In this document: positions 3,991 through 56,235 of the stretch, one piece after another
How positions within the stretch are numbered: the stretch's first letter is position 1
Layout: each line of letters begins with the position of its first letter
Source of the DNA: Branchiostoma lanceolatum
Taxonomy: Eukaryota; Chordata; Leptocardii; Amphioxiformes; Branchiostomatidae
NCBI RefSeq assembly: GCF_035083965.1
Contig: NC_089738.1
Location: 7,919,734 to 7,983,733 of the forward strand
Reading direction: 5' to 3'
DNA: 64,000 nt
Made by a program: the position numbers and the translations under genes
The notes under the pieces: generated by a model
The model's input: the letters and a program-made list of their open reading frames with translations, nothing else
Told to the model about the DNA's origin: nothing
Databases searched by the model: none

Positions 3991-5071
3991 TCCTTTTTAA
4001 CAATGCTGTTAACCATAGTGTATGGAACAAAATTTTGTTTTTGGTACTGTTCTTCAAATGTTAAATGTTTGAATTAAAGATGACATCATCTTTATGGTAT
4101 GCAAAAAGATGATTCAGTTTGTCATATTCTTTGTTCTAGCCAAAGTATATTATAGACAGTAAATGTACATCTCTAGCATGAAATATGAACCACGTAGTAT
4201 CTATTTCGTAAAGCATATGTTTTGATAAAACATATTTTGGGTGTCCATGTCTTTAAATAGACCCCCTAACTCCAGGATATGTTTGTATAAAAGACAGGTG
4301 GAGGGTATAGTGTCCTGTTAATAAGGCCATGGAAATCTCTTGTCTGTCATTTTCCAATCTTAACCTTCTGGGTGCTAAGGTAGTCTTTTGCACCAAGTTT
4401 GCATGAGTTGTGGGGTTAAACAGCAGAGGGAAGGTTGTGTATGACATTGTCATAAGAGAGGAACAAGGAAGGAAGTTTTGGAAGAGTTGTTGTCTGAAAA
4501 TTTCAGTGTGTTTTTTTAAATGTTTGACGATTCATCTAACACAGTATTGTATTCATTTATAAAATAAAAGAATACAATGCTGTCTTAGATGAACCTAAAT
4601 TATATTGTTACAATTTCAAATGTATTCTACAATTTCCAGGTTGCAGTTAGGTTTCATGAGTTCAGCTTCAACTAGAGGCCTTTTCATTGATCGTGTTTGT
4701 TTGAACCTTTGTCAGAAGGTTATATTTTCGGTTTCGCTACGGTGGAGTGTAAACAACATATCTCAAGAAGCTGTTGATGGATATTCATGGTTTTTGGTAG
4801 GTGGGCCGGTATTAGGGAGACAAAGGTCAAGTTCAGGAATGGGCCATCTGGTGGATTCCTACATTACTGCAGCGGACATTTTATTTAGATATTTGTAAAT
4901 CATTGTATTCTGTGGGGACGTTATCTCTGGTTGAAAGATAATTGATGAATCGTCACTATGAACCAAGGAAAAGGACACCACTCAGTACAAAGCCAGAGTC
5001 TTGAATTATTTATTCCCCTACTGACTGACATTAATGGCGTCGTTAATGGGAACGTTTTATTTTTTCAGACG

Positions 5072-8800: not shown

Positions 8801-11800
8801 GGACATCCTGCGGCTACCGGGCTATTTTTGGGCATGGCCAGACCCCTGAATTTTGTAAACTTAGAGTTAAAATCAGCCTGGGACCTGGTAACAAATAGAC
8901 GCTGTAAGCTAATTGTGGGGGCACCGAGAGGTATTCCCTGGTCTCCAGCAATCTACAGGAACAAATTTGTCACAAAGATCCCAAAATGAACAAATAATTG
9001 TGCCAGTGTAGATTGATTTTTAAGGGAGAGATTTGTAAAACATTTGAATCTTAACGAACGCTGTCTTGTTTCTTACAGGTCCTACAGAACATCCTGGAGA
9101 CAGAGAAGGCTCACACTGATGAGATGCACACTTTCCTGGTCACATACTTAAAACCACTACAGAACGCTGGAATGTAAGTTGTTCATTCAATAGAAAAACA
9201 TCTCCCCTTGTCAGAAATACTTGTTTTACCTCAACCAAATTATATGAAAAACTCTCATGATAAATGTTGAACTTCCAGCTGTTGACTGTAAATCTCAGTC
9301 ATATCCAAACTTCTGTAACTCTTGTTTCTTTCACTGTAACTTAATGTTCACGGTTTTCACAGTCACTTCTGTACCGTGAACTTATCATCATCGTGAAAAA
9401 ACCTACACCTTTCGCCCCCCTCCTCATCTCTCCACTACATTTAGTTTAATATGATACCTACTACTCCTCATCCTTCCCCAAAAGATCACCGACTTTTTTG
9501 TGCATTTGCCGCCACCGTGAAGTTAAAGTTCACTGAAAAAGTCAATTTTCCTTACACCGTGAACTTTTGCTACCATGAAGATAAAGTGAATTACAGTACT
9601 TAACCTTTGAAAGACTAAGTTGTGTTGTCTGTTCTGTGTTCCCCAGCCTGTCGAACCCTGAGTGCATGATGCTGTGTGGTAACCTGGAGGATGTAGTATT
9701 TAACCATTGTAAGACTAAGTTGTCTGTTCTGTATTTCCCAGCCTGTCGAACCCTGAGTGCATGATGCTGTGTGGTAACCTGGAGGACGTAGTCAACATGC
9801 AGCAGGCCCTGCTTAAAAACCTGGAGGACTGTGCAAAGTAAGACACTTTATTCTGTAAAGTATCAAGCATTAATGGGGGTTAAGATTTGGGTGTATTAGA
9901 GCATTGTAAAAAGGTAAAGCAGTCATCCTCAATGGAGGTGAAGCATGATGCCTTTTAAAGTAGCTTAAGTGGTAAGTGCAATGCGTTTTAGGCCAAGCAC
10001 ACCGGGTCAACCCTACTCTTCTTGATAAGTTGGTTGGGTTCTTTTACGTGCAGAGGTTTGACGCTTGAGGCTAACGCCTGAAGCTCCCTCATACACGGGG
10101 CCGCCGACTTTACGTCACCATCTAAAATGACAAATGCATTCCCTTACAACATTTCCGAGCTGGGGACAACCCTAGAATCGAACTCTGGCCCACAAATCCA
10201 TGGAACTTGATCTAGATGGCCAAGCAGCAGGGTTGCATTACTGCTTGCACCACAGGGTCATGCACATTAGAGCATTACACTGTATGACAGATTGTTATTT
10301 CAATGAATACATTTTCCAGACATTCTTTCTGACCTCCTTTGATTTTGAATGGATGTTTGTGATTTATATCTGTGTCAATCATAAAAAAACAGTGTTTCTT
10401 GTTACAAATGGTTTCCTCAAAGATATGGTGATCATTCTGTTGTGCACATGAGGACTGATGTATTGTTGTCTGTGTGTACCCCCCTCCCCCTCCAGGCTTC
10501 CCGGTCCACAGCAGAGAGTAGGAGGGTGTTTCCTGAAGGTGGCAGGCCAGATGAGGGCGTTGTACCAGGGCTACTGCGCCAACCACCCCAAGGCTGTGTC
10601 TGTATTAGCGAAAAACAAGTCAGTACAACTGTTACTATCTAGACCCAATCCTACTGTTGCTGAGACCATTATGTGTTTACCAATTTCTGATTGTAATGTA
10701 TCCAGGCCGGCCTAAGTTGTACTGGTGTACATGTATATTCATGTCCATGTATCTTGAAAAGATTTGCATTTTCTACCAAAAGATAAGAACTAGAAATTAC
10801 CTTTTTTCGTCTGATATTGCAGCGAGGAACTGTCGTGAATAGATTTTTGAACAAGAGCACATCTTAGAAACATAATTACCGATCATTAAAGATGGAGGTA
10901 TAGTTTTTGGCCTGTGTGTCTGTGTGTGTGTCTGTCTGTGTTTTTTTCCGGATTTTGTAGTCAGCATAACTCAAGAACCTCTTGATGGATTATGATGATA
11001 TTTGGTATGTGGTTAGGTCTTTTGAAGACAATAGTCAAGATCAATTTTGGGCCCCCTGGTATGTGCCCTTGTTGACTTTGTGCATGATATAAAGAAGTTT
11101 TGTTTTTGTCAAAACTTAAGTGATGTTTTTCTGATGTTGTAGTGAGGAACTGAACAGATTCATGGAGAGTCAGGGTGCGCCCAGCCCCGGTCTGATGACA
11201 CTGACCACTGGCCTGAGTCAGCCCTTCCGCCGACTGGACAAGTACCCCACGCTCCTCAAGGAACTGGACAGACACCTCGAGGTACGTCTTGACCGTCTTA
11301 AGATTTCTGTGTAGAATCTTAGTTTTACATGAAACATGCTAAAGGTAAGGTAAAGCAATGGAACGTCAGACTGAGGACGAAGCATAACGCTTTTTGGTTA
11401 GCTAGTAGTGCAATGCGGCTTTGCTACGGCTGGCGTTTTCAACAAAGCACTGGGTCACCCCTACTCTTCTCAATAAGTGTGTTGGGTTCTTTTCCATGCA
11501 GAGGTTTTACTCTTGAGAAAATTACTGCAGTCAAATTACAAGTGACCACCTGTACATAAAGACCACATGTCCAATGTGACCACTTTTTGGTGGTCCTGAT
11601 GTAGAGGAGGTCACTTGTACAGGTTTGACTGTAATGATTTTCTACAAGTCATCTATAGGCTGCTCAGGGTTAAGACATTAACTTGCCCCTTGACTTGGTC
11701 CAATTTTTCCCGTTGACACAAGCATTAAGAATCCTGTCCATAGTGACTGCCTGTCCACATAGACCAGATTTTATCGGGTCCCTGAGTGGTCTTCTTAGGC

Positions 11801-17800: not shown

Positions 17801-20800
17801 TGTGTTACTGTTTTAAACGGTAAGTCACATTCAAGAATACAATGATTACACTAAATTTTCAGTCTAAACAGTAAGGTGTTTTGAATCACATGCCCCCCTC
17901 CCTCCGGGCTATCTTTTTGTTTTGCAAAGAAACTAAAGCATGTTTTGTTCAGGGTTTTCAGTCAAAAATCGTTGCCATTGTGTGAAACCGGAACAGTTGG
18001 TTCATTTTGAACATGACAAATCATGTCTTTGTCAAGAGAGATCCATGCTACCCCTGTAACAAAGACTGTAACATTTCTAGATCTTGAGTTATGAAAGAAT
18101 GTTCGTGTCTTGAAAAGCTGATAAAGCCTCATGTTTGAGAGGGTCAGTACATACATCCTACATGTTCCGTTGCTTTCAGAAGAAGCCAGATCGTTCTACA
18201 ATTCAGGAAAGAAAATTAACATTTTTAGGTTTTATTATGTTTTTAAGAATCAGAATGCCTGTTTTCAACAGATAAAATTTGTGCCCATATTTATGAAGAA
18301 ACTTTAACATGTAGAAGAGCTTGTATGTACTGTAAAATGCATTTAAGTGCGCAGTGATTTACTTTCACGGTAGGGAGCAAATTGAGTTTTTGTTTTAGTC
18401 AGGAACATAATGATTTTTTGTTAGTCAGGAAGGGTTTGGTGGGTATGTACATGTACATGTATTACCAGGAAATTTTACAATTCATTGTATTGTTGTTTTC
18501 AGGACAGAAAGGAGCGTTACTTCCTTCTGTTCCCGGGAGTCTTGCTGATGTTATCTATCAGCCCTCGCATGAGTGGATTCATATATGAGGTAGGAACAAT
18601 GCTGTTACACTGGTATATGTATTTTATAGAACTTATTGTACTGTGTACCTAAACTTGTGTTCAAGTCCGGATTTAGATCCGGAGGTTCAGCTTCAGGTCC
18701 GGACTTATAAGTCCAGACCTGAAGCCATGGCATATGTGTGCTAAAATTTTTTTTTTTCCTGTTAAATGTAAAATTACATATTGGCATGTATTTTACATGC
18801 AATCTGAAAACTATACATGCGAAATTTATACATAAAAGTCGATCAGTAGTAAACACGAAAGTTCCGTTATAAACACAAAAACAGCAATGTTTTGATATTT
18901 TCACGATCTAAGGAAGGTTTAAGATGGTTTTAAACAAAAAGTTTTTTCAAGTCCGGACTTGTTTCCAGACGTTTGGGTTTTTTGGACTTGAACCTAAATG
19001 TTATACGTCCAGTCCGGATCAGGTCCGGGGTTTAGGTACGCAGCATTATATAGAACACAACCTGGTATATGCCATATCACCCAAGGTACCAGCTCGCCTG
19101 CGTGTCGGCCATTGGGCGATCTGACCCGTGGGAGGGCTGTGACAGAGGGTGATGCGGAATACACTTTGTTGTATAACATACCGTATTTCTTCTAATAAAG
19201 GACGCACCCCCGATTTGCCCTTCACCGCGACCCCAATCACGCCAGGTGAGATAGTTGACAGAAAAACCTTAATAAAGTGCGCACCCCCGATCTGCCGCCG
19301 GCCGCTCGGAGCGCGTCTCCAAGATGTGGCCACGCCCTGGTATTCGGCACGCTATGAAGTCCTGGTGTTTTCTTTATCGTTAATTTTTCAATGAATTTTC
19401 GGGAAAACATTACCATTATTTGGGGTCAACATAGCTTTACCCTCTACTCCGCTCAAATTTTGAGTAAAAAGTTTTGAAGTTTATCGTCACGCTGGGAACC
19501 TCGCGCCAGGATATCTGACAAACTTCCTTGATATTGAAGGACCAGACGACGATCCGCTTGATTTCTACCGGGATAGTCAAAGACAAACGTGTAAAACGCA
19601 TTTTGAGATAAAATAAAAGTTCGTCTCTCGGCATTTATCCCGTAAAATACAGCGTTGCATTGACAAATTATTTCATTTCGCCGATCGCCCGCCGCCATAT
19701 TGTTCAAATCCTGCTGCCCCAAGATGCATTTCGCGTCTTACGTAATCCTCATCACATGATCGCATTACGCGTCTCTGATTGGTTACTGCTGCAGCTAAAG
19801 GCGGGAATTTTGCCGACGCAGTGCATCATGGGGCAGCGAAACCGCGATTTAAATTTTTTCTTTGTCTGAAATGTTACACTTGAAAACGCAATAAAAACGC
19901 GGTTTTATCGACTACATAGCAACATTATAGCACAGAAAATGCAAAACCAAAAGATGTTTTCGGGAAAGCATACATTTATTTGCGGATTTATGGTGGCTTT
20001 TGCGTAATTTTAGCGATCAATGAACCCAGAAGTGTGCCGAAAGGGGCGTGGGTTTTCGCGTTTTATCCGTCAAAACAAAAACAAAACTGTCGCTAAAGTG
20101 AACTCTCGAACATTTCAGATCCCATCGATTACATTTTTGATCAAAATATTCACAGATACGCCGTATTTGCAGCCATGTGGGTGGTTAGGAAATTACTGAC
20201 GCCGCAAGCGGCGTGGGGTACGAAATTATGGCCGGCCCGACACACTGAAATAGTCGCGCGGGTTGAAAACACCCAGCGTTATTAGGTGTCTCATAATTTA
20301 ATATTTATCACTAAATCGATTATTTTTATATCTAACATACTTTTTCAAAAATATACGTATGATGTAGCATCGTTATCTTGTAAACATAAGAACATGAATA
20401 AGAACAGAACATGGATAGATTATCGTTGCTGGTCGGCGACGCGACGGGGCCAGCCTGCTGGGGTAACGCTGACTTCCTGACTTATTTCGCGCCTTTTCTC
20501 GAGAGAAAACCTAAATAAAGTGCGCACCCCGACTTTGGCTTTGACCTGAAGCCTCATCTTGAAGGTTGAAATTTCAAAAAAGTGCGTCCTTTATTAGAAG
20601 AAATACGGTAAGAGGTTTTACTGAGCAACCTCTGTTACACCCACAAACTCTAGTCTGAACTTAAACTTGACATCTTAATGGATAGTTGCATGTACATGTA
20701 ACTTGGTACATGTAAAAGGAGACAGTAGGTCAACAAAAAACTTTTAAGGCCATTCTGGGCTTCGCACACTAAAGACAGAAAGTAGAAGTGTATTTGACAG

Positions 20801-23800: not shown

Positions 23801-26800
23801 GAAACCATTTGATACAGCAGTTGTTAAATTCTAGCAGTTGGGGGAAAGGGAGTAGTTCACTGCATTTATTTATTTATCTCAAATGTTAGCAATCAAATGT
23901 TTGCGATGATGACATTTTAGCAGATGACTAGTGACCGTTAAAGTAGCTGTTAACAAATCAAGAATTATAGTTACTGTAGTTAGTCATACTTTTTTTTTAC
24001 TTTCTTTGCAGGGAGTTTGATAGAGAGAATAGTGGTGACGACAAACTCGACGCGCGAGCAGGCAGAATGGGCGACTCTTCTGCAGCAACAGACAAAGATT
24101 TCCCCCGTCACGCCCGTGACAAGTAAACCGCCCCCCGTACCCGCCAGCAGCAGAACACCCACATCTACACTACAGAGACATCAAGTCCCACCTGCAATCA
24201 AGGTTGGTGAAACTCTGGTGTGATGCCACCCTAAGCTTCCAAACTTCTGTGAGATACCGCATTCTCTATCAATGTGGTGAAACACAAATTTTGACATATC
24301 AAATATTGTTACCAAAACAATGATTCAGTTTCCTATGAATATTTTTGTCCCACCTGCAATCAAGGTTGGTAAGAGTGTGAAACTCTGGTGTGATGCCATC
24401 CTAAGCTTCCAAACTTCTGTGAGATACCACATTCTTCATTAATGTTGTGAAACACAAATTATGACCTATCAAATGTTGTTACTAAAACTTTGGTTTATTT
24501 TCCTATGGATATTTTTGTACATATGGTTATGAGGACAACAACAATCATGTGATACATGACATGTAATATGATACTTCATCATGATTTTCTAACTTAATGT
24601 TTCTCTGTCTTTTTGACTGTCCATTTCCATTCCATTTCTCTTCTACTTTCCCGTCTTTGCTGTTTTCCTCAAAATTTGGTTACAGACCTGTGTGTTGTTT
24701 AACACTTTACAGGACACTGTTCTGTATATTTCTGAGACGTCAATGCCACCTTCAGGGAAGGTATGGGTCTCAAGACGTACTTCTCCCATCACTAATACAT
24801 CTCACGACATTTCATCTTCTTTGTCTATCATGAACTGTGTTTCTTGACACCGGCTTTCTTTTAAATTTGTGTCAGACCTCACAACATCCTACTGCTGTCT
24901 CTTCATACATTGTGAGTGATTTTCATTTTTGTGTATGTAATACATGACATTGTGTTTTATGTGTTGTGGTACCTGCAAAACTGCTTTTATTGCTTCCTAT
25001 TATAAATGCAAAGCCATGTTCATTCGAATATATGGATGACATCCTCTGGGAACCCCAAAACTGACGCGAGCGTGAAAAAAAAAGTTTGTCCCAAAAAAGT
25101 TTCCTTCATAATGAAATCTAAGTGGTCAGGAAGGTCAAACAAATGACTAAACACATCAATTTGACATTCTACGACATACATGTAAGTATCTGTTTTCTGA
25201 TTTTGTGCAATTTACAGCTTATATTTGCTCATTTTGTAATGTACGATTAACAGTCTGGTCTAAACTTTTTTTGGAAATGGACAAAAATTGATGTCATACA
25301 TGTAATCAAATCAACATGGCCTAATGGACAAAATATGATAGATTTTGACGCAATGGCTACTTGTTTTCCCTCACAGGTCCCGCCTGCCAAACAGCCCGAC
25401 GTGAGCCGGTTGAAGCCCACCTCCCCACCCCCTGCCAGCGTGAAGATGCAGAAACTGGAGCCGCCCCCCAGACACGGCCCCTGGACGCTCAGCTGCCTGA
25501 GACCCGCACCCCCTCTCAGACCCTCGGCTGCACTACTTATGAAGGAGGTAGGGGGAGCTTTTCACTGCAGGTCCATAAGTAGAGATGGACAGAAAAGATC
25601 TCACAGTGATTTACATTGAGAAAAATTTATCTGATACCATGTAATTTGAAAGGTTTAGAATGTAACATCCCACAGACCAGTATGTCCTCTGTGCCCCCCT
25701 CCCCACTATTCTCTGTCTGCCATTCTGCTGCTGTATTTTTTTTCCTGTCAATTCCATAATCATATTTGCCTGTGTTTGATCTTTTCTTTTCAAATGTGGA
25801 CACTTTTTTTTCTGCCATTTTCAATTTTTTTCTCGCATCTTGTCTGATCCCGACCCTCTGTTCCTCCTTCCCTCCTCTGTCTCACCAACACCACCACGTA
25901 CCGCCCCCCTCCCACCCCGGCGCGGCAGGCCCGTAACTCAGGAAACAAGACTTGGAGTGTAGGCTGCTTGCCACCTGACATGTTCAAGGGGCCAGCTGCT
26001 GCTCTGCTTGTAACTATCCTCCATTTTTCTGCTCTCGTTTGTCTGGACCTTTGTCACGTGCATGTCTCTCCTCTGTATCTGTGTTTCTAATGTCTGTGCA
26101 TGATGTGTCAACTATCCTCCATTTTTCTGCTCTCGTTTGTCTGGACCTTTGTCACATGCACGTCTCTCCTCTGTACCTGTGTTTCTAATGTCTGTGCACG
26201 ATGTGTCAGAACAAGATGGCCGCCCCCAGTGACCTCCAAGGTGACTCCAAGGTCATTTGAAAGACAACAGCAATGTCTGTTGTCATAAAACCTTTCCTTT
26301 AACATTACAGAAGAATTTGAAGTAATTTTAAACAAAATTTTGTGTGAGGATTTTTTGTCAAAGCAAAAAAGCAGTTACTGACAAGACCCTTTGGTACATG
26401 TACCTTGCACTGAAGTGTGGTCACTGGACGTCCCAATTGTTGTGTGTACATGTACATGTCTACCCCTCTCTCTCATTCCGCATGGATTCTTCCTTGCACA
26501 GGGATTCTAAGAATGATCTGTATTTGCCGTGTGCATATTTAAAATTCAATATGCATTTTGTATGTAGTTGATATTTTGCAATAAAACTCTACCATCAATC
26601 TTGTTGCATTTTCCATCCTTCCTAATGTATTTGTGCTTTCACTGATGTTATACACTGTGCTGATTCACACTTACCATACCTTCTAACTTCTACATGGTCT
26701 TTCCACTCTAGACAGCTAGTGGGCATTCTAAACAGGCATGTATATGTAATTTTGCTCTTGTCACATTTGCCATGGTTTCCTGTGCCATGTAGACGAATTC

Positions 26801-29800
26801 GCTGCTGTTTTCAGCTTTCCTCCTTTACATTCCCAGTTCATAATCCCTCCAAAATAACATGCTGTTATTGTAATATCAGGTTTGAGGACATTTTCTTATG
26901 ATATATATTGTTTATGTAGCGTTCTATCAACAGCATTTTAGATGTTATTTTAGAAAAAAGATAAAGAGAATAGTGTAATAGTTAATATGCTTTGATAAGT
27001 GGTCATAAGGGGATGTGAAAGGGGTTCAAACAGTTTGTGATCTTCTGTTTTTGTTCCTAACTCTTTGCCATGTTTCTATCTAAAGGACCCCAACAGGAGT
27101 CCCAGGACAGTTAGGAGATTGTTAACATCTTCCATGAGAAGAAAACAAGGTGATGTATTTCTTGTGAAGCATCCTTCCTATTTCACTTAAAGGCCAGTCA
27201 TACATTAAAGATTTTCTGAGTTGTTAGATAAAAGGGTTTTTGGAAATAACAATCTAAAGTGTGTTCACAAGAATGAGATTACTTATTAGTACTGATACAA
27301 AGAGTTATACAGGAAAGGAAAATGCTGAGTGTTGTTGTTTACCTTTTTCAATGTAGTGTCTAGTGACATACAGGTTGGCAAGTTTCCTTGCTGTTTCTAT
27401 AGCAGGGTTTATTTTTACAGGGAGGGGTTGCTAGCCCTTCCCCTATACTATTATGATAGATGGCATTTAAAAGTGTTTTTATCTTAATTGTGTGTTTCTG
27501 TACTTTTTTTGCAGACAGAGCAAGACTAGAAGAAGAGTACCCTCCTGTAAGACTAAGTGAGTGGGTTTGTACAAGTTGACGAAACCGTTTTCTCTCCCTG
27601 TTGTTTGTTGTTAACCCTAAGCTGTCTAGGGGTGCTGTAAGCACCAACATTGAAACTACATGTAGATACACCTGAAGTGTACTGATGGTGAAAGGATGTC
27701 CGATAGTAATACAACTCTATGTCTTGTTCCGTACCTTTTCTGTATCTATGTCATAACACTTAGTAGAAGAAATTTATGTCTGTAGGATATCATGTACTGA
27801 GAAGAAAAGAAAGTAGTATACTATGTGTCTTTCAGGTAGCGCACAGTTGGAGGAGGATGCAGCTGTACTGAGGGTGATCGAGGCTTACTGCACCAGCACC
27901 AGTAAGATGAGACAACAGAGCCTGCTGAGCACATCAAGCAGACAAGGTAATACTTGACTTTAAGTAGTGAGACAATGTTCTGCAGAAAGTATTGTACTGT
28001 TAGTGATGCTTTATGTGCTGCTGCAAGTTTACAAAAATGTATGTACATTTTGTGCTATCTAGTCTGGTTAAAGAAGAGCTGTTGGAACATCACAAGATCT
28101 GCTATTATTAGTTCCTAGGAAGCACAATCAAATAAGGAATTGCAATTGGCAAGAGGTCTATTGTGAAAGTTACTTCCCAATGGTAGTAGCTTTCACAATA
28201 GACCTCTTGCCAATTACGGCGGCCATTTTGAATTTCCTGGGACTGTGCACCAAAACGAGGCTGCAGTTGGTGTTCCCTACTTAAAGCCTGTGTTACAGTA
28301 AAGGCAGCAGCAACCAGCCTCGTTTTAGTGCACATCTCAAAATGGCCACCGTGATTGGCAAGTGGTCTATACCCTAAAAAGAGTTAAAGAAATATAGATC
28401 CCAAATGTTGTAAATATACAAACATTCCTACACAATTACTAGGACATGTACACTCACCCTACATTCACGTCTTTGACAAAGGATATCCCCCAAAGTGTCA
28501 CACATTCCAAATGCAAGACAACCCTCCCAATGCCCCTGCCATACAATCTGCTTCTTTTTGCTCAATGCGTACTAATGTTACATGTGACACCTGAAGGCAC
28601 ATCTTCTTTTACACTGTCTGTCTTGTCAAATCTGTTAACAGAGGTGTTAACATATCTTCAGACAAGGGGTATTGTCTTGAAGAACGTGGTATGTATTTAG
28701 AGACTACGTGTATGTTGAGACATGGGTGTAAGGGTATTATGATAGGGATATGTGTAGGGACGGAAGGTGGTTATTCAATCCAATAATCATCCAACGTGAC
28801 ACTGCTTTGCTTCTGCCCAAAACTCCTTGCTTCTATCATGCCAGCTGTTTATTTAATGTCTCTTTTTTCCTTTTCTTTCAAATTTTTGTCATTTTTATCT
28901 ACAATTGTCATTGTCACTGGTTAACAGAAGGAAGGTACTTATTGACATTATTTGAAACTATAACCTTTGGAATTAATGAATAAAACATTCCCTTCTTAAA
29001 AGCTAAACTTTCTTTTTGTTGTTTTCCAACATTTCTTCAAATCTTTGTACGGCATCAATAGAGACGGCTTTACTTTCTTAGGGTAAAGATTGTAAATTTC
29101 CTTTTAATTTTTGACAAATTGAAACTGAAAAATCTATAAAACATAATACATGAGATCTAACTTCAGAGTAGAAAATGATTTTTTTTTTGTTCATTTCAAA
29201 GTCATACCAGAGAAAAAAGTCGTAAATTGGTGGCTGATTTTGAACGTGGTTGATTTCTAGAGTTTTTGCATTCTTGGAGAGAAAATGCTATTTCTAGATT
29301 TCTTTTCTCTAGGAAAGTTTTCCCTTGAAAAAGAAGCAAAAGCAAGAAATTTGTCAGAAAGTCAAAGTTGGATGATCAGATTGGATAATAACTTTCATCT
29401 TCCTTCCCATGATGCAACAGAGCTGTACAAAGTTTCGCTGGAGCCAGCGGAGGCCAAGGACGCTTCTGGTAACCATAGCAACGGTAGCCATAGCAACGGT
29501 GGTGTACTGAGAAGACCGTCAGATGATTATGATTATGCCTTACTGCAGAAGAAGAGCTTGATGCACAAATGCTGTCCGAAATTCTAGGAAAAAGTGCCTG
29601 TCAGCATGTTGCTTCTCATGGACAGATTCTGAACAATGCAATCGGGCACTGTGTCAATGGACAACAGTAAATGTGTGGACCAAAACACTGCGTTGCTGAT
29701 TTGGAGACCGTACCAATTGGATTGAGGACTGAACTCATTCTTCAAGATCTGTATTACCTTGGAACATAATCAAGTTTGCATATTTTACAAACTTATGACC

Positions 29801-44896: not shown

Positions 44897-47800
44897 CTAT
44901 AATTCGTCTTTTCTGGTAGTAGTCCCTTCTGGGCGAACAAGTCTACCCATGAATAAGATAGAGTTCGTGTCGTTGTCTTTGATAAAGAACAGGAAGGGAT
45001 GGTCCGCATCGAACTCGTGTGTAGGCCCTGACAGAACGATATCCCCCGCTGTCGCTGCCGCGGCTTCTGTACCCTCTTCATTGACGTCAACAAACGCCTT
45101 GTGGAGAAGGGCGTCCACGTGAAGACCACGTGATCCTATCACGTGAAGATCACGTGATCCCACCATGCCTGATAAGTCCGCTTATGTCATGCCTGGGCCT
45201 GATACGGGTGTTCCGGACCGTGTGATAACTATCCGGATCACATAGGGTTCGGGAGGGTTATCACACAGGCTTCCATAGAATATTTCGAACGCATTTCGAA
45301 CGCGTCGGTTGCGCGGCCGTCGGAAATTCGAATACCGGATTCGGAGATTGGAATCAATGTTGCTACAGTTTCTTGTTCGAGGACACAAAACTCCCTCAAC
45401 TTCTGGCGCATTCCGCATTGAAATGTGTGTTTTCTCGGGTGGGTATGGCCAAGGTATGACATAAATAAAATACAACACGTTGTATTCCGCATCACCCTCG
45501 GTCCCAGCCCTCCCGCGGGTCGGATCGCCCTCCGGCCTACGGCCGTCGGGCGATCCGACCCGCGGTCGGGCTGGTACCTCGGGTGATACGGAATACCCCG
45601 TGTTGTATTCTATATATCCGTGCCGAACAAGTCGGGCATCCCTATTTCTGACAACTTTTCACTTAGCCCAAAATCTTGTACAAGTTTGAACTTCGGCATG
45701 AGAATGCCAACGTATTCTTGAACCATAGAATTCTGCCACCTACGAAGTAATTCAGGAGTTAGAGATGTTTCAATGGCGTTGAGTCCGTCTATTTTGTCTG
45801 GTAAGACCACAACCATACTCAAGTGCTTGCCCTTGTATGGCAACTCCAAGATCTGGCATTTCACGTTCTCATCGCGGCCTAATTTGAACATCCCGTCTTG
45901 GTACATCATGGGAACTTGTATGTCTTCCTCAGGACTGACGTGGAAAGGACTGAGCATAGTGTCTGAGGTGTAGAATGGACTATCCCAACTCCCCTTGAAG
46001 TAGATGGCGTTGACGAGAACCAAGACGGTTTCTGGTGAAAGAAGTCCTGAAGAAATATATTATTATTCAGTATAGACATCAATCGTGCGTTCGTTCAAAC
46101 CCATGTAATGCCAACACCATAAGGTAGCAAGTTTCCTTGTATCATTTTCACTGGGAAGAGTTGCTAGCCTGAACATTTCTTGCGTCCCTTCCGAAAGACG
46201 GGTGGGACAGAGATGCCCTACCCAGGACTAAACCCTGGACTTGGAGGGTGTTAAGCACAAGGGACAGTATTGTTACTCTGAAAAGTGTTCAGCACCAGGG
46301 ACAGTGTTTTTAGTGTGGGAAGTGTTCAGCACCAGGGACAATGTTGTTAGTGTGGGAAGTGTTCAGCACCAGGGACAGTGTTGTTAGTGTGGGAAGTGTT
46401 CAGCACCAGGGACAGTGTTTTTAGTGTGGGAAGTGTTCAGCACCAGGGACAGTGTTGTTAGTGTGGGAAGTGTTCAGCACCAGGGACAGTGTTGTTATTG
46501 TGGGGAGTGTTCAGCACCAGAGACAGTGTTTTTAGTGTGGGAAGTGTTCAGCACCAGGGACAATGTTGTTAGTGTGGGAAGTGTTCAGCACCAGGGACAG
46601 TGTTGTTAGTGTGGGAAGTGTTCAGCACCAGGGACAATGTTGTTAGTGTGAGACGTGCTCAGCACCAAGGACAGAGTTGTTAGTGTGTAAAGTGTTCAGC
46701 ACCAGTGACATAATTATTAGTGATGACTGAGTGTGCTGAGTGCTGACTGCAATCATGTGTTTACGATTCATATTCTAAGAAATCGAAAAGTTATGATTTT
46801 GACACAGGCTCAACTTAGGCAGAGATATGTGTATCATAGTTTTCATATACACTTCCCTATATGCCGCAAATATAGCACAAAGGGCCTATCAAACAGCATA
46901 TGAAACTGAAATGTGACACATACCTGGCTCCATAATTTCTTGAATTCTGTTATCTGTTTGTTCCTCTACCCAGTTGTTGATAGTTTGCCGTGCGCCCTCG
47001 GTGTTTCCACTGAAGTCCACGGGAGCCAACTCTGCTCCGTAATTCCTGGACGTTTCGTCAAGAAACTTCTGTGCAAACTTAAAGGAGTTCTGACCGAAGA
47101 GCCTGTTGGCGGTCTTGAGTGTGTAGGGCCTGTCTGAGTGGTGTAGCTGGGTCAGAAGGTCGTGGAACCGTTCGTGGAAGTCCGTTTGGTTTAACTTGTT
47201 GAAGCGCAGCACGCGACTCATCTTGTTTTGGAATATAAAGCATAACGTTTAGGAGGTGAATCACACTTAAGCGGTCACTGCGCGTTACACTCACGCTTCC
47301 ACAAGTGTTAAGCCCCTGCCACACTTGTGCGTATATACAAGTCCGCATGAGTTGCGTATTTACATGTTTTTGGTTAAGGTTAAGTTTGCAGCCGACTAAG
47401 TGATTTCTTAGGTTCGATCACTTGGCTGCACAACGGTGGGTCAAAGTAGAAAACAACTTTCTCCCCGCAAACCGTGCATGTTAATGCGCAACTCACGCGC
47501 ACTTTAATATACGCACAAGTGTGACAGGGCCCTTACATTGGTACATATATGATATATATATATATATGCAAACACCAAATGATATGTTTATTACCTCGTA
47601 TTACCGCCACATATGCGACTCCCCCTACATGGGACTCAGTAAACTTTTTTTTTTCAAAATCTATATTGTTCTGTACAGGAAATACAGGCATACGATTACA
47701 ACTAGTGACATTGCAAACAATACTACGAATATGATCTCCAAGCAGATCCTACTTGGGGAAATGGATATTGTTTAGGCCCATGTAGTTTTCCACAACTTGT

Positions 47801-49185
47801 ATAGCACGTCGGCAGAACGTGAGTGTCTAAGGTCGTGTTAGCGTATCTAAGGTTAATATCTCGTATATACGTTTTATTTAGTTCTGTCCAAAGACATATC
47901 TTGTGCAACGACTGTTACTCCGATGCAATGTTGACCCACTAGAACAATTAAAGATTATAGATTCGGCAGCTATAACAGGTTGAGATAGCAGGCTAATTAC
48001 CATATACGCATTACCTTCTACGGCGTGCCGACGTGCTAACTTTTCTTGTATAGGTGTAGGCATGGGGTCACACTTTGTAACGCTCACCTGTTGTGCTGTA
48101 TCATTCCTTTAGCTCACCTGTTGTGCTGTATCATTCCTTCAGCTCACCTGTTGTGCTGTATCATTCCTTTAACTTACCTGATGTGCTAAACCTCCTTGAT
48201 TATTCCTTTAACTTACCTGATGTGCTGTATTATTCCTTTAACTTACCTGTTGTGCTGTATCATTCCTTCAGCTCACCTGAGCTCACCTGTTGTGCTGTAT
48301 CATTCCTTTAGCTCACCTGTTGTGCTGTATCATTCCTTTAGCTCACCTGTTGTGCTGTATCATTCCTTTAGCTCACCTGTTGTGCTGTATCATTCCTTTA
48401 GCTCACCTGTTGTGCTGTATCATTCCTTCAGCTCACCTGTTGTGCTGTATCATTCCTTTAACTAACCTGATGTGCTAAACCTCCTTGATTATTCCTTTAA
48501 CTTACCTGATGTGCTGTATTATTCCTTTAACTTACCTGTTGTGCTGTATCATTCCTTCAGCTCACCTGAGCTCACCTGTTGTGCTGTATCATTCCTTTAG
48601 CTCACCTGTTGTGCTGTATCATTCCTTTAGCTCACCTGTTGTGCTGTATCATTCCTTTAGCTCACCTGTTGTGCTGTATCATTCCTTTAGCTCACCTGTT
48701 GTGCTGTATCATTCCTTCAGCTCACCTGTTGTGCTGTATCATTCCTTTAACTTACCTGATGTGCTAAACCTCCTTGATTATTCCTTTAACTTACCTGATG
48801 TGCTGTATTATTCCTTTAACTTACCTGTTGTGCTGTATCATTCCTTCAGCTCACCTGAGCTCACCTGTTGTGCTGTATCATTCCTTTAGCTCACCTGTTG
48901 TGCTGTATCATTCCTTTAGCTCACCTGTTGTGCTGTATCATTCCTTTAGCTCACCTGTTGTGCCGTATCATTCCTTGCCCCCAGGTAAGTCATGGCCAGA
49001 CAGGTGGAGATACTGAAGGGCGAGAAGAAGATGTTCTCGGGATGATCCTTGTGGAGCGTCTTGTACAGCTCCAGGGCAAACTCGCTGTTGACGTCAGCCA
49101 ATGACGTAGGCTCTTGTGGGGCGGGGTTCTCTGCAGTTGCCATGGCAACGAGGAGTCCAATGAACAAGCAGTACGTACTCCGCAT
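44897..49185 (-). CDS. ER-retained serpin with C-terminal KDEL
   Basis: Exons are 49185-48955 (phase 0), 47221-46924, 46046 to about 45616, and about 45180-44897. The protein has a signal peptide ([13 protein letters not shown]), serpin landmarks ([58 protein letters not shown]), [19 protein letters not shown] and the closing [20 protein letters not shown], then ends KDEL. The hinge (G-T-E-A-A-A-A) is of the inhibitory type. By length against antitrypsin the scissile bond falls at or next to the Leu-Ser of GDIVLSGPT. Amphioxus is known to have a KDEL serpin that inhibits furin-like convertases; the loop here has no basic pair, so its target probably differs. The exon 3/4 junction is abnormal (see findings). 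Confidence 0.88.
45184..45468. mobile_element. MITE-like element at the serpin exon 3/4 junction
   Basis: Ends TATGTCATGCCTGGGCC (45184-45200) and GGCCAAGGTATGACATA (45452-45468) pair with two mismatches. The interior includes TCCGGACCGTGTGATAA and its partner GGTTATCACAC. It lies directly against the last serpin coding segment (about 45180). Confidence 0.65.
45469..45616. mobile_element. Palindromic MITE, 'GGGCGATC' family, copy 2
   Basis: The whole element folds back: ATACAACACGTTGTATTCCGC at one end, GGAATACCCCGTGTTGTAT at the other, and a centre GGGCGATCCGACCCGCGG with its complement. It matches the element at 19045-19180. Its edge falls at the last readable codon of serpin exon 3 (about 45616). 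Confidence 0.75.
46085..46260 (-). mobile_element. SINE family 2 fragment in serpin intron 2
   Basis: Matches 'GGTAGCAAGTTTCCTTG', 'GAGTTGCTAGCC', 'CGTCCCTTCCGAAAGACGGG' and 'GATGCCCTACCCAGGA' of the SINE at 41815-42095. The 37-bp minisatellite begins at its head end. Confidence 0.55.
46253..46715. repeat. 37-bp minisatellite in serpin intron 2
   Basis: About a dozen copies of GTGTTCAGCACCAGGGACAG followed by TGTT(G/T)TTAGTGTGGGAA. The array degenerates at both ends. The same unit (with GTGGAAA) makes up 54893-55890 in the UGT gene, in the same orientation on the plus strand though the two genes face opposite ways. Confidence 0.95.
46890..47221 (-). CDS. Serpin exon 2
   Basis: Exon 47221-46924, between an ACAAG acceptor and a CAG/GTATGT donor, encodes [20 protein letters not shown], the helix C-E region of serpins, then [17 protein letters not shown] and [19 protein letters not shown], which is the conserved helix F motif (N-x-W-V-x-x-x-T). 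It joins exon 1 in phase 0 and exon 3 in phase 1. Confidence 0.9.
48082..48985. repeat. 30-bp minisatellite built from the serpin exon-1 splice donor
   Basis: About 30 tandem copies of AGCTCACCTGTTGTGCTGTA plus TCATTCCTTT. Read in the serpin direction, each unit is the exon-1 end AATGATAC(A/G)GCACAACAG followed by GTGAGC. The true exon end is the outermost unit (donor at 48954/48955). A higher-order block of 289 bp recurs from about 48172, 48461 and 48750. Some units read CATCAG/GTAAGT. Confidence 0.97.
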
Positions 49186-52556: not shown

Positions 52557-55500
52557 ATGAGGGGTAAACTTCAGTGCTCGGTCATTCTGCTCGTAGTCCT
52601 ATGTCTTCTGACAAGCCACAGGAACAGTGCAGAGAATGTTCTGATGTTCCATATGCCAAGTTTCTACAGCCATTGGTTGATCTTTGCAGAAATCGGCCAA
52701 GCATTAGTGGACAAGGGTCATAGCATCACTGTAGTTCTTCCCAAAGATCTTGAAGAGACAAGACGGACAGAGAGGCCTGATTTTTCGTTTGAGAGCTTTC
52801 AAGACAACGGAACGGGGGCACGAATCAATGAACTTATAGAATACTACTTGTCAATGGCTGGGCAGGCGTCTCAATCTGTTTTCCATACCTTGGAAGCAGG
52901 TATCGATATGACCGGGACGATGACCAAACACTGTGACCTACTTCTGAGGGACAGTACCCTGGTGAGTCGCCTGAGGGCGCAACAGTACAGCGTAGCTATT
53001 ACTGACCCCCTCTACCCCTGTGGGGCTCTGATGGCAGCTCATATAGACGTCGGGCTTCCCAATATCGCCGTCATGCGTTATGATCTTTACTTTCAGGACG
53101 TCAAAGCTACGGGTGTACCCCTCCCCCTGTCCTACGTAGCGTCAGTCGAAACGGATTTTACCGATCAAATGACTTTTCTACAGAGACTTCAAAACGTTGG
53201 CCTTTACAGTATTACTCACGTAGCGAGACGCTGGATGGCGAGTAGCGTGTATGACGGTGTGGCCCGTGAGTTCCTTGGGGAGGGAGAGACTACACTGGGC
53301 GTTATGTCCCGTACGACGTTGTGGCTGTATCAAACCGACCTCGTGCTGGATTTCCCCCGCCCCACCATGCCCGACATGGTCCAGGTCGGCGGACTGAACG
53401 TCCGTGAGGCCGCGCCGCTTCCCGAGGTGAGTCCGTCGACCCTAGCTGGTCCGCTTCCCGAGGGTTGTTACACTGACTCGTTTGAAAGCGGACCAAAGCT
53501 GTACAAAGGCATACTTTGACTTTAACACAAATAACATATGTGATCTATGGCAGGTGAAGCATTAACAGACACCAATTATGCAAAAGAGGACCTAATTTGC
53601 ATAAGTGATGCGAAAGAGTCATAAATCATCTTAATGGTAAGTGATAGCATCAGGCATTTTCATGGAGGTATGAGGTTACCGAACTCTTGTTTCGCAAGAG
53701 GTATGTTCAACATGGAGTTGGGCATTTGCTACTGACTGACTGACTGAGTGAGTGAGTGAGAAAGTGACGTTAACGTTGATACAAGGCGTCATTTGACATT
53801 CTGATCCTCTTTTGGCTTGTGTTTGGCTAACTGCTTTATCCATCTAGGACCTGGAAGCGTTCATGCAGTCTTCCGGAGAGGACGGAGTGGCTGTTGTCAG
53901 TTTCGGGACGGTGGTGCAGAATATGTCACCGGAACAGCTAGAAGTCTTCACCACGGCCTTGGCCCGACTCCGACAGAAGGTGGTGTGGCGGTACGTGGGA
54001 GAGAAGCCGCCCGGTCTGGGCAACAACACCAAGCTGATGAAGTGGCTGCCTCAGAACGACCTGCTCGGTACGGCACGCATTCTAGATCGCGCACATTCGA
54101 TAGTGCACGGCTTCAATTCCATTACGACGAATCGATAAAGCAACAACAACAACAAAAGTCTGGATGCTATCCTATTCAGTTTACCTGGGCCCCCAAGCTT
54201 ACTCTCTTATATATTTAAAGAGGGCGCAAGTATGGGAGCCACTGTATACCAAATAGGATGACACCCAAGCTGCAAGAAAATGGCAACGAACCAGAAAATT
54301 AGAATCAACCAATCAAAAGGTTGCTTGCACATGACGTCACAGCCGCCACGTTGGTCGGCTAAACCTGGAAATGCTAGACCTATAAATTTGCACGTGTATG
54401 TGTTTTTTTTTACAGTTACGCGTCTGTCATTACACATTTACCTGTCAAATTTACCTTTTAGGTTTAACCATCCAGCATGGCGGACAATCCCTACGTCATA
54501 GTCACGTGAGCGCAAACAATCTATAAGCCAGCTTGTTTTTGAAAAGATATAATCCATGGAAGATCATTCAATATTGCGAATGTCTGTTCTGATAACATTC
54601 TTTCTGATTGGATCAATTTGACACAGGCCATCCGAAGACCAAAGTCTTTATAAACCATGCTGGTTATAACGGCGTGTGCGAGGCGCTGTACCATGGGGTG
54701 CCCATGGTTTGTCTGCCGCAGTTCGGGGACCATCCCGGTAACGCCGCCCAGGTGGTGGCCAGAGGGCTGGGGGTGAAGCTAGACATTGGTACGGTGACCA
54801 CGGACCAGCTGTACCAGGCCATTCTTCGTGTTCTCTACAACAACAGGTACTACTGGTTAGCATGGCAGCTCTGTGTTAAGATACCAGGTACATTTTTGTT
54901 AGTGTGGAAAGTGTTCAGCACTAAGAACAGTGTTGTTAGTGTGTAAAGTGTTCAGCACCAGGGACAACGCTGTTATTATGGAAAGTGTTCAGCACCAGGG
55001 ACAATGTTGTTAGTGTGGAAAGTGTTCAGCACCAGGGACAGTGTTGTTGGTGTGGAAAGTGTTCAGCACCAGGGACAGTGTTGGTAGTGTGGAAAGTGTT
55101 CAGCACCAAGGACAGTGTTGTTAGTGCGGAAAGTGTTCAGCACCAGGGACAGTGTTGTTGGTGTGGAAAGTGTTCAGCACCAGGGACAGTGTTGGTAGTG
55201 TGGAAAGTGTTCAGCACCAGGGACAGTGTTGGTAGTGTGGAAAGTGTTCAGCACCCGTGGCAGTGTTATTAGTGTGCAAAGTGTTCAGTACCAAGGACAG
55301 TGTTGTTAGTGTGGAAAGTGTTCAGCACCAGGGACAGTGTTGTTAGTTTTGGAAGTATTCAGCACCAGGTACAGTGTTGTTAGTGTGGAAAGTGTTGAGT
55401 ACCAGGGTCAGTTTTGTTGGCGTGGGAGTGTTGAGCACCAGGGACAGTGTTGTTAGTGTGGAATGTGATCAGCACCAAGGACAGTGTTGTTAGTGTGGGA

Positions 55501-56235
55501 CGTGTTCAGCACCAGGGACAGTGTTGTTAGTGTGGGACGTGTTCAGCACCAGGGACAGTGTTATTGGTGTGGAAAGTGTTCAGCACCAGGTACAGTGTTA
55601 TTGGTGTGGAAAGTGTTCAGCACCAGGGACAGTGTTGTTAGTGTGGAAAGAGTTCAGCACCAGGGACAGTGTTGTTAGTATGTAAAGTGTCCAGCACCAG
55701 GGACATAATTGTCAATTTGAGACATGTTCAGTATCAGGGACTGTTATATAAGTGTGGAAAGTGAACAGCACCAAGGACAGTGATGTTCGTATATAGTCCC
55801 AGGGACAGTAATGTTACTTTGTTAAGTGTTTAGCACCAGGGACATAATTGTTAGTGTGGAAAGTGTCCAGCACCAGGGACATAATCGTTAGTATGAGGGG
55901 TGTTCTGCTTTGAGTGTGGGTGCCTCTATACCTATGTTCTGCCTTTCCGCAGCTACCGGGAGACTGCAGCCCGCCTGTCCCGCCTGCACCGTGACCAGCC
56001 CCAGTCACCCATGGAGCGGGCCGTCTGGTGGATAGAACACGTCATCAAACATGGCCGACTGCCCCATCTCCGCGCACGCGCCGTGGAGCTGCCCTTCTAC
56101 CAGTACTACCTACTCGACGTGGTGGCGTTCCTATTGGCTGTCTGTACAGCTGTACTAGGGGCCGTGTGGTGCAGTTGTTCTTTCATGTGTAGAAAGTGTT
56201 GTTGTAAAAGTGACCGAAAGCTCAAGTCACAGTAG
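52557..56235 (+). CDS. UDP-glycosyltransferase (UGT family), ER membrane
   Basis: Four exons, 52557-53426, 53848-54067, 54627-54846 and 55953-56235, join in phase to give 530 residues, the normal UGT length. These enzymes move a sugar from a UDP-sugar to small lipophilic compounds in the ER lumen. Visible are a signal peptide (VILLVVLCLLTSH), the substrate-side catalytic His in FYSHWLIF (residue 39) and its partner Asp in ITDPLYPCG. The donor side has AVVSFGTVVQNM, WLPQNDLLGHPKTK, then INHAGYNGVCEALYHGVPMV and LPQFGDHPGNA. A single membrane helix (VVAFLLAVCTAVLGAVW) and a cytosolic tail ending KLKSQ (a KxKxx retrieval pattern) follow. The family's usual 'FGDQ' is FGDH here. The ATG at 52557 gives the signal peptide. 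Confidence 0.95.
53732..53761. repeat. (ACTG)n / (AGTG)n microsatellite
   Basis: Short run of ACTGACTGACTG followed by AGTGAGTGAGTG in UGT intron 1. Confidence 0.85.
54893..55890. repeat. 37-bp minisatellite in the last UGT intron
   Basis: About 25 copies of GTGTTCAGCACCAGGGACAG + TGTTGTTAGTGTGGAAA, diverging toward the right end (ACATAATTGTTAGT variants). It begins about 45 bases after exon 3 and ends about 60 bases before exon 4. Same family as the array at 46253-46715. Confidence 0.95.

Follow-up and report, generated by a model that had tools for sequence, protein, structure and literature searches.

The serpin gene and its interrupted third exon

The stretch of DNA analysed here (the window) comprises 64,000 nucleotides of Branchiostoma lanceolatum (NCBI RefSeq assembly GCF_035083965.1, contig NC_089738.1, positions 7,919,734 to 7,983,733 of the forward strand). 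It holds an ARHGEF7-like gene, a UGT gene, a CHMP1-like gene and a serpin gene, the last on the minus strand from 49185 to 44897. The coding part of serpin exon 1 (48955..49185) has 77 codons, runs from a signal peptide, judged by eye, to ...NDTAQQ, and matches positions 3-48 of the Pfam Serpin profile (2.8e-14). Its donor, CAG/GTGAGC (48949..48957, with 48954 as the first intron base), was located by site search and opens intron 1 (47222..48954), which is 1733 bp long and consists to one half of a tandem array. Exon 2 (46924..47221; 298 nt, not a multiple of three) takes up the profile at positions 49-145 (1.6e-25). Because the profile runs unbroken from 48 to 49 over intron 1, the junctions 48955/48954 and 47222/47221 are supported as the authentic ones. 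Exon 3 is present in two parts: an upstream part (45613..46046; profile 148-291, 2.7e-45) and a downstream part (44897..45181; profile 293-370, 4.1e-24), the latter an open frame that includes the reactive-loop region and ends in KDEL. Intron 1 also contains three poly(A) signals, at 47878, 47592 and 47508, all downstream of the array.

The introns of this gene are in phase 0 (at Q/M) and phase 1 (after ...IMEP). Counted by hand on alpha1-antitrypsin, and compared with the available text of PMC2746811 and PMC2556349, they lie at 75c (intron 1) and about 174a/176a only. This is the arrangement described there for lancelet L1 serpin genes, and the gene thus resembles that group. The KDEL C-terminus is likewise as in lancelet Spn-1, whose loop is given as NMMKR/S (PMC2556349, in the text available); in a comparison by eye, the loop of the present gene is not NMMKR/S. 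A further difference from the lancelet L1 serpin genes is the interruption of exon 3.

The interruption is a transposon-like insertion of 431 bp (45182..45612), composed of a hairpin element (an inverted repeat within insert positions 4-144, 84%) and a second element whose inverted ends, each 18 bp long, match at 16 of 18 positions. The frame does not run uninterrupted through the reactive loop: it stops at 45612, after 321 residues. Since the first codon of the insertion is an in-frame TAG, even regular splicing still gives a serpin lacking the reactive loop and KDEL. Past the insertion, the frame remains open for 94 residues, reactive loop and KDEL included, so that the insertion is probably young, and it may be polymorphic. 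Removal of the insertion as an intron looks unlikely: the GT nearest upstream of the stop, at 45628, is a poor donor by eye and lies within conserved coding sequence, and its use would therefore cost codons. A 71% diverged copy of the hairpin element is found at 19051-19174, between the ARHGEF7-like exons at 18500 and 23021. Separately, the coding part of exon 3 carries a short tandem duplication at about 45120-45165, seen in translation as GSRDLHV followed by IGSRGLHV.

A minisatellite across the border of exon 1 and intron 1

The array is a border-spanning minisatellite, of the type termed a mirage, at 48082..48976 on the minus strand. Tandem Repeats Finder (TRF) reports it at 48082-48976 with a period of 30 (27.9 copies) and a period of 289 (3.1 copies), with 99% matches over about 0.9 kb. 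On the gene (minus) strand it contains 31 CAG/GT sites, namely the authentic donor at 48954 and 30 decoys downstream of it; by type they are 22 CAGGTGAGC, 8 CAGGTAAGT and 1 CAGGTTAGT. The motif CAGGTRAGY occurs 30 times on this strand of the array (the authentic site counted, GTTAGT excluded) as against twice on the plus strand and never on the minus strand in the rest of the window, which excludes chance. A first-pass annotation made from the letters alone had described a serpin donor amplified about 30 times in intron 1, with the authentic junction as the first unit, and both the donor count and the homology-supported junction bear this out.

That annotation had further stated that every 30-bp unit contains the end of exon 1 and a donor. 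We cut the units at CAG/GT, and the test of repeated splice signals is then the set of gaps, which are 10, 30 or 39 nt only, rather than the number of units. The donor-to-donor spacing is 30 nt in 24 of 30 cases, with three spacings of 10 nt and three of 39 nt, and the exact 18-nt exon end AATGATACAGCACAACAG is present in 21 of the 30 units. The authentic exon reads ACG where those 21 units read ACA, a synonymous difference. By eye, the substitutions among the units are of three types within the donor 9-mer and of three types in the 21 nt outside it, indicating that the donor part of the unit has not been sheltered.

The units recur in a higher-order pattern. Block 1 (48666..48954) spans 289 bp and ten donor-to-donor units in the order AAABCDEFCA, an order repeated three times along the array except that the middle block has G in place of F. 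Block 2 (48377..48665) is one base off blocks 1 and 3, having GTTAGT for GTAAGT, and block 3 (48088..48376) is identical to block 1 over all 289 bp. These three blocks with a single difference among them point to recent growth by blocks: either the last amplification took place recently and in whole ten-donor blocks, or the number of blocks is a matter of assembly. An assembler that over- or under-counted blocks would account for the identity of blocks 1 and 3, and a published mirage, that of BflGb6, appeared misassembled in a draft genome according to the available text of PMC3087553. Six unit types within a block differ in sequence, however, which gives at least one block the appearance of genuine sequence; we regard an assembly artefact as improbable. 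Near-identity of the 289-bp blocks would also suggest that the array is unstable in length between haplotypes.

Donor strength, reading frame and RNA folding

Scored with a donor weight matrix, the GTGAGC type shared by the authentic donor reaches 6.73, GTAAGT 8.53 and GTTAGT 3.83. For the duplex with the 5' end of U1, the three types give -11.1, -11.8 and -7.9 kcal/mol, in the same order. The eight GTAAGT decoys therefore outscore the authentic donor by both measures, as the first-pass annotation had proposed for some units, while the single GTTAGT decoy scores below it.

When the authentic donor is left unused, translation continues through the GTG AGC TAA of the first unit and ends at the in-frame TAA at 48946..48948 on the minus strand. 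This codon is common to all decoy products, and 30 of 30 end as ...NDTAQQVS followed by the stop, at 79 residues. The predicted encounter of read-through with a stop is thus confirmed. The accompanying claim that the frame is kept through the array does not stand: the first 10-nt unit already shifts the frame, and the decoy offsets are 0, 1 and 2 relative to the reading frame in 10 of 30 cases each. This shift has no consequence for the product, because the first unit's TAA is read first. Preservation of the frame as a design feature is thereby ruled out.

A stop shared by all decoys, 29 of which are at least as strong as the authentic donor, would accord with a scheme in which competition among donors diverted a copy-number-dependent share of transcripts into a stop-containing form that is then decayed, so setting serpin output. 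The use of downstream repeat units as donors in human IFI6 (PMC4526556, in the text available) would fit such a dosage device as well. The same uniformity also counts against it: all decoys give one product, and donor choice thus adds no variety. Furthermore, this gene copy encodes a truncated serpin whichever donor is used. Together with the published splicing data discussed below, these points lead us to judge it very unlikely that decoy competition sets the level of this serpin.

Folding that hides the decoys was ruled out, since all 20 shuffled versions of the array RNA are more strongly folded than the array itself. Openness, estimated from local pairing, is 0.002 at the authentic site, 0.031-0.178 at the GTAAGT decoys (8 of 8), 0.019 at the GTTAGT decoy and 0.000-0.007 at the 21 GTGAGC decoys. 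Recursive splice sites were set aside: AG/GT occurs, but none of the 20-nt stretches that precede the CAGs is rich in pyrimidines.

Other duplicated exon borders in the window

Exons of the ARHGEF7-like gene were mapped by tblastn with a human ARHGEF7 sequence, and a repeat search listed 20 of 25 families. Among the matches listed, two further mirages appear in this gene, both on the plus strand. On the acceptor side, copies at 9624-9697 and 9719-9792 (9624..9792; 96%) double the acceptor and the first part of its exon 95 bp apart, and read-through of the upstream copy hits a stop. On the donor side, copies at 24185-24217 and 24347-24379 (24185..24379; 88%) double the border 162 bp apart, and read-through of the first copy meets a TGA after GTT GGT GAA ACT CTG GTG. 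Candidate donors here are the GTs at 24203, 24207 or 24218, with 3, 5 and 2 mismatches in the duplication, which places 24203 and 24218 within the duplicated sequence; for the exon ending near 24203 the best-scoring donor is 24218, and 24204 was set by hand from the end of the protein match. A weak fourth match, at the ARHGEF7 acceptor 11143 and a site 320 bp upstream (5 mismatches in 24, short extent), was not counted.

A 24-bp sequence was taken as locally duplicated if it recurred within 1 kb with no more than 4 mismatches, and 62949 positions were scored. The 30 tested borders were placed by homology (ARHGEF7 24, serpin 4, UGT 2). The CHMP1-like gene, the remaining UGT borders, both borders of the ARHGEF7 match at 27056-27124 and the upstream borders of the matches at 4973 and 25428 did not enter the test. 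Some tested borders are one or two bases off, and four that were re-placed gave the same answer. Local duplications cover 3 of the 30 borders against 5.3% of the 62949 positions, a result whose chance at this rate is 0.21; taking the genic rate, 9.2%, as the baseline raises it to 0.53. The chance falls to 0.026 once the three large arrays leave the genic baseline (2.2%), and is 0.13 for 2 of 29 borders with the serpin array removed on both sides. There is thus no clear excess of local duplications at the exon borders tested in the window, and the border duplications may need no explanation beyond the frequency of local tandem duplication.

A 37-bp minisatellite family is shared by serpin intron 2 (46248-46710) and a UGT intron about 8 kb away (54883-55881), and by eye it spans no exon border. 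Its core 14-mer occurs 9 and 14 times, respectively, on the plus strand and 0 times on the minus strand; the family lies on the same genomic strand at both sites and hence in opposite gene orientations.

Discussion

Amphioxus mirages have been published for Adh3, the globins BflGb6 and BflGb9, TnC and PGBD5 (PMC3087553, in the text available), and the link to amphioxus Adh drawn by the first-pass annotation was well founded. As in those genes, the serpin tandem repeat spans an exon-intron border of which the authentic one forms one unit, and many of its units carry splice signals, with 30 CAG/GT sites downstream of the authentic donor. The serpin array differs from the published mirages in its gene and in having 30 decoys in near-identical ten-donor blocks. 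A search of the literature on amphioxus or Branchiostoma minisatellites, mirages and serpin introns, which covered titles and abstract openings and lay mostly outside subscription journals, found no report of it. The array is a correct and striking sequence finding, and adds a large new case to a class of repeat that amphioxus was already known to carry.

We consider it likely that the array is such a mirage, grown neutrally, with the authentic donor dominant and the decoys tolerated rather than selected. It would have started as a tandem duplication of the border between serpin exon 1 and intron 1 and have expanded through unequal exchange, the most recent steps each adding a whole block of 289 bp and ten donors. 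The spliceosome would mostly pick the first, cap-proximal donor, probably because only there does a full exon with its enhancers lie upstream, and U1 would sit on the decoys only transiently. The U1 footprint is given as covering 23 exonic and 12 intronic nt (PMC6002489, in the text available); being longer than the 30-nt unit spacing, it would keep the units from all being occupied together. Leakage to the decoys would yield the one truncated reading frame, and nonsense-mediated decay should remove the message. In favour of this reading, the units open exactly at the homology-supported junction. Regular splicing is, moreover, what Adh3 data and globin RT-PCR suggest for the published mirages in the available part of PMC3087553. 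The interruption of the gene copy itself and the commonness of local tandem duplications in the window also count towards a tolerated array.

Several observations run against dominance of the authentic donor. Eight decoys outscore it, the array RNA is weakly folded, and the GTAAGT and GTTAGT decoys are more open than the authentic site. When two donors are comparable, the intron-proximal one is said to be favoured, by a mechanism described as not known (PMC6002489, in the text available), which would predict use of the last units of the array. By analogy, human IFI6 (6-16) may also count on this side: its minisatellite provides several splice donors, and two downstream units are used (PMC4526556, citing Turri 1995; in the text available). 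The serpin minisatellite resembles it in offering several candidate donors. Downstream units in IFI6 give isoforms, as far as that source goes, whereas in the serpin array none of the 30 decoys can give a longer open isoform, on account of the stop.

The closest parallel in layout is the VNTR in intron 18 of human ABCA7, described in the available text of PMC5954066, with a 25-bp unit and the first GT of the array as the authentic exon-18 donor. In both cases the authentic donor is the first of the repeated donors and a decoy product has a premature stop; the serpin units differ in reaching into the exon too. The two arrays presumably arose independently; the ABCA7 VNTR lies in a C-rich region according to the same text, and population and RNA data exist for it. 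Retention of one unit there amounts to 2 +/- 1%, is unaffected by VNTR size, and leads to a frameshift and premature stop, so that decoy donors with stops, put forward by the first-pass annotation as what was new at this locus, have a precedent. The suggestion of that annotation that repeat number could tune output through donor choice finds no support: all decoys yield one truncated product, decoy use in ABCA7 is about 2% and independent of repeat number, mirage splicing is reported as undisturbed in the available text, and exon 3 is interrupted.

Copy number could also act by another route. ABCA7 alleles range from 298 to 10678 bp, and skipping of exon 19 rises and expression falls with VNTR length (PMC5954066, same text). 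By this analogy the array would act as a ladder of U1 sites 30 nt apart, changing in length ten donors at a time and little spliced at its decoys; longer arrays would slow removal of intron 1 or favour skipping of exon 2, altering the efficiency of intron-1 definition or exon-2 inclusion and giving allele-dependent serpin expression. Skipping of exon 2, at 298 nt, would shift the frame. Set against this, the serpin array, at about 0.9 kb, would rank among the shorter ABCA7 alleles. We think such an effect unlikely, with somewhat better prospects than an assembly artefact or a decoy-based dosage device. Among functional versions, one in which array length affects the splicing of intron 1 or exon 2 would be more plausible than tuning through decoys, a possible but less probable route. 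Proposals in which the array tunes an active serpin have to reckon with the interruption of exon 3, at least in this haplotype. We conclude that the array is most likely a tolerated accident and not a control switch.

Thirty-one near-equal donors in a row offer a natural test of how the spliceosome chooses. Were the choice among equal donors to fall on the intron-proximal one, the last unit would be used and the protein lost; according to the mirage reports, in the text available, it is the authentic border that is used. Alleles with different numbers of blocks, if they exist, would help to decide donor choice without engineering; the two haplotypes of the BflGb6 mirage have 6 and 3 units (PMC3087553, same text). 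The serpin array also illustrates that repeats can abound at exon borders with no function required of them.
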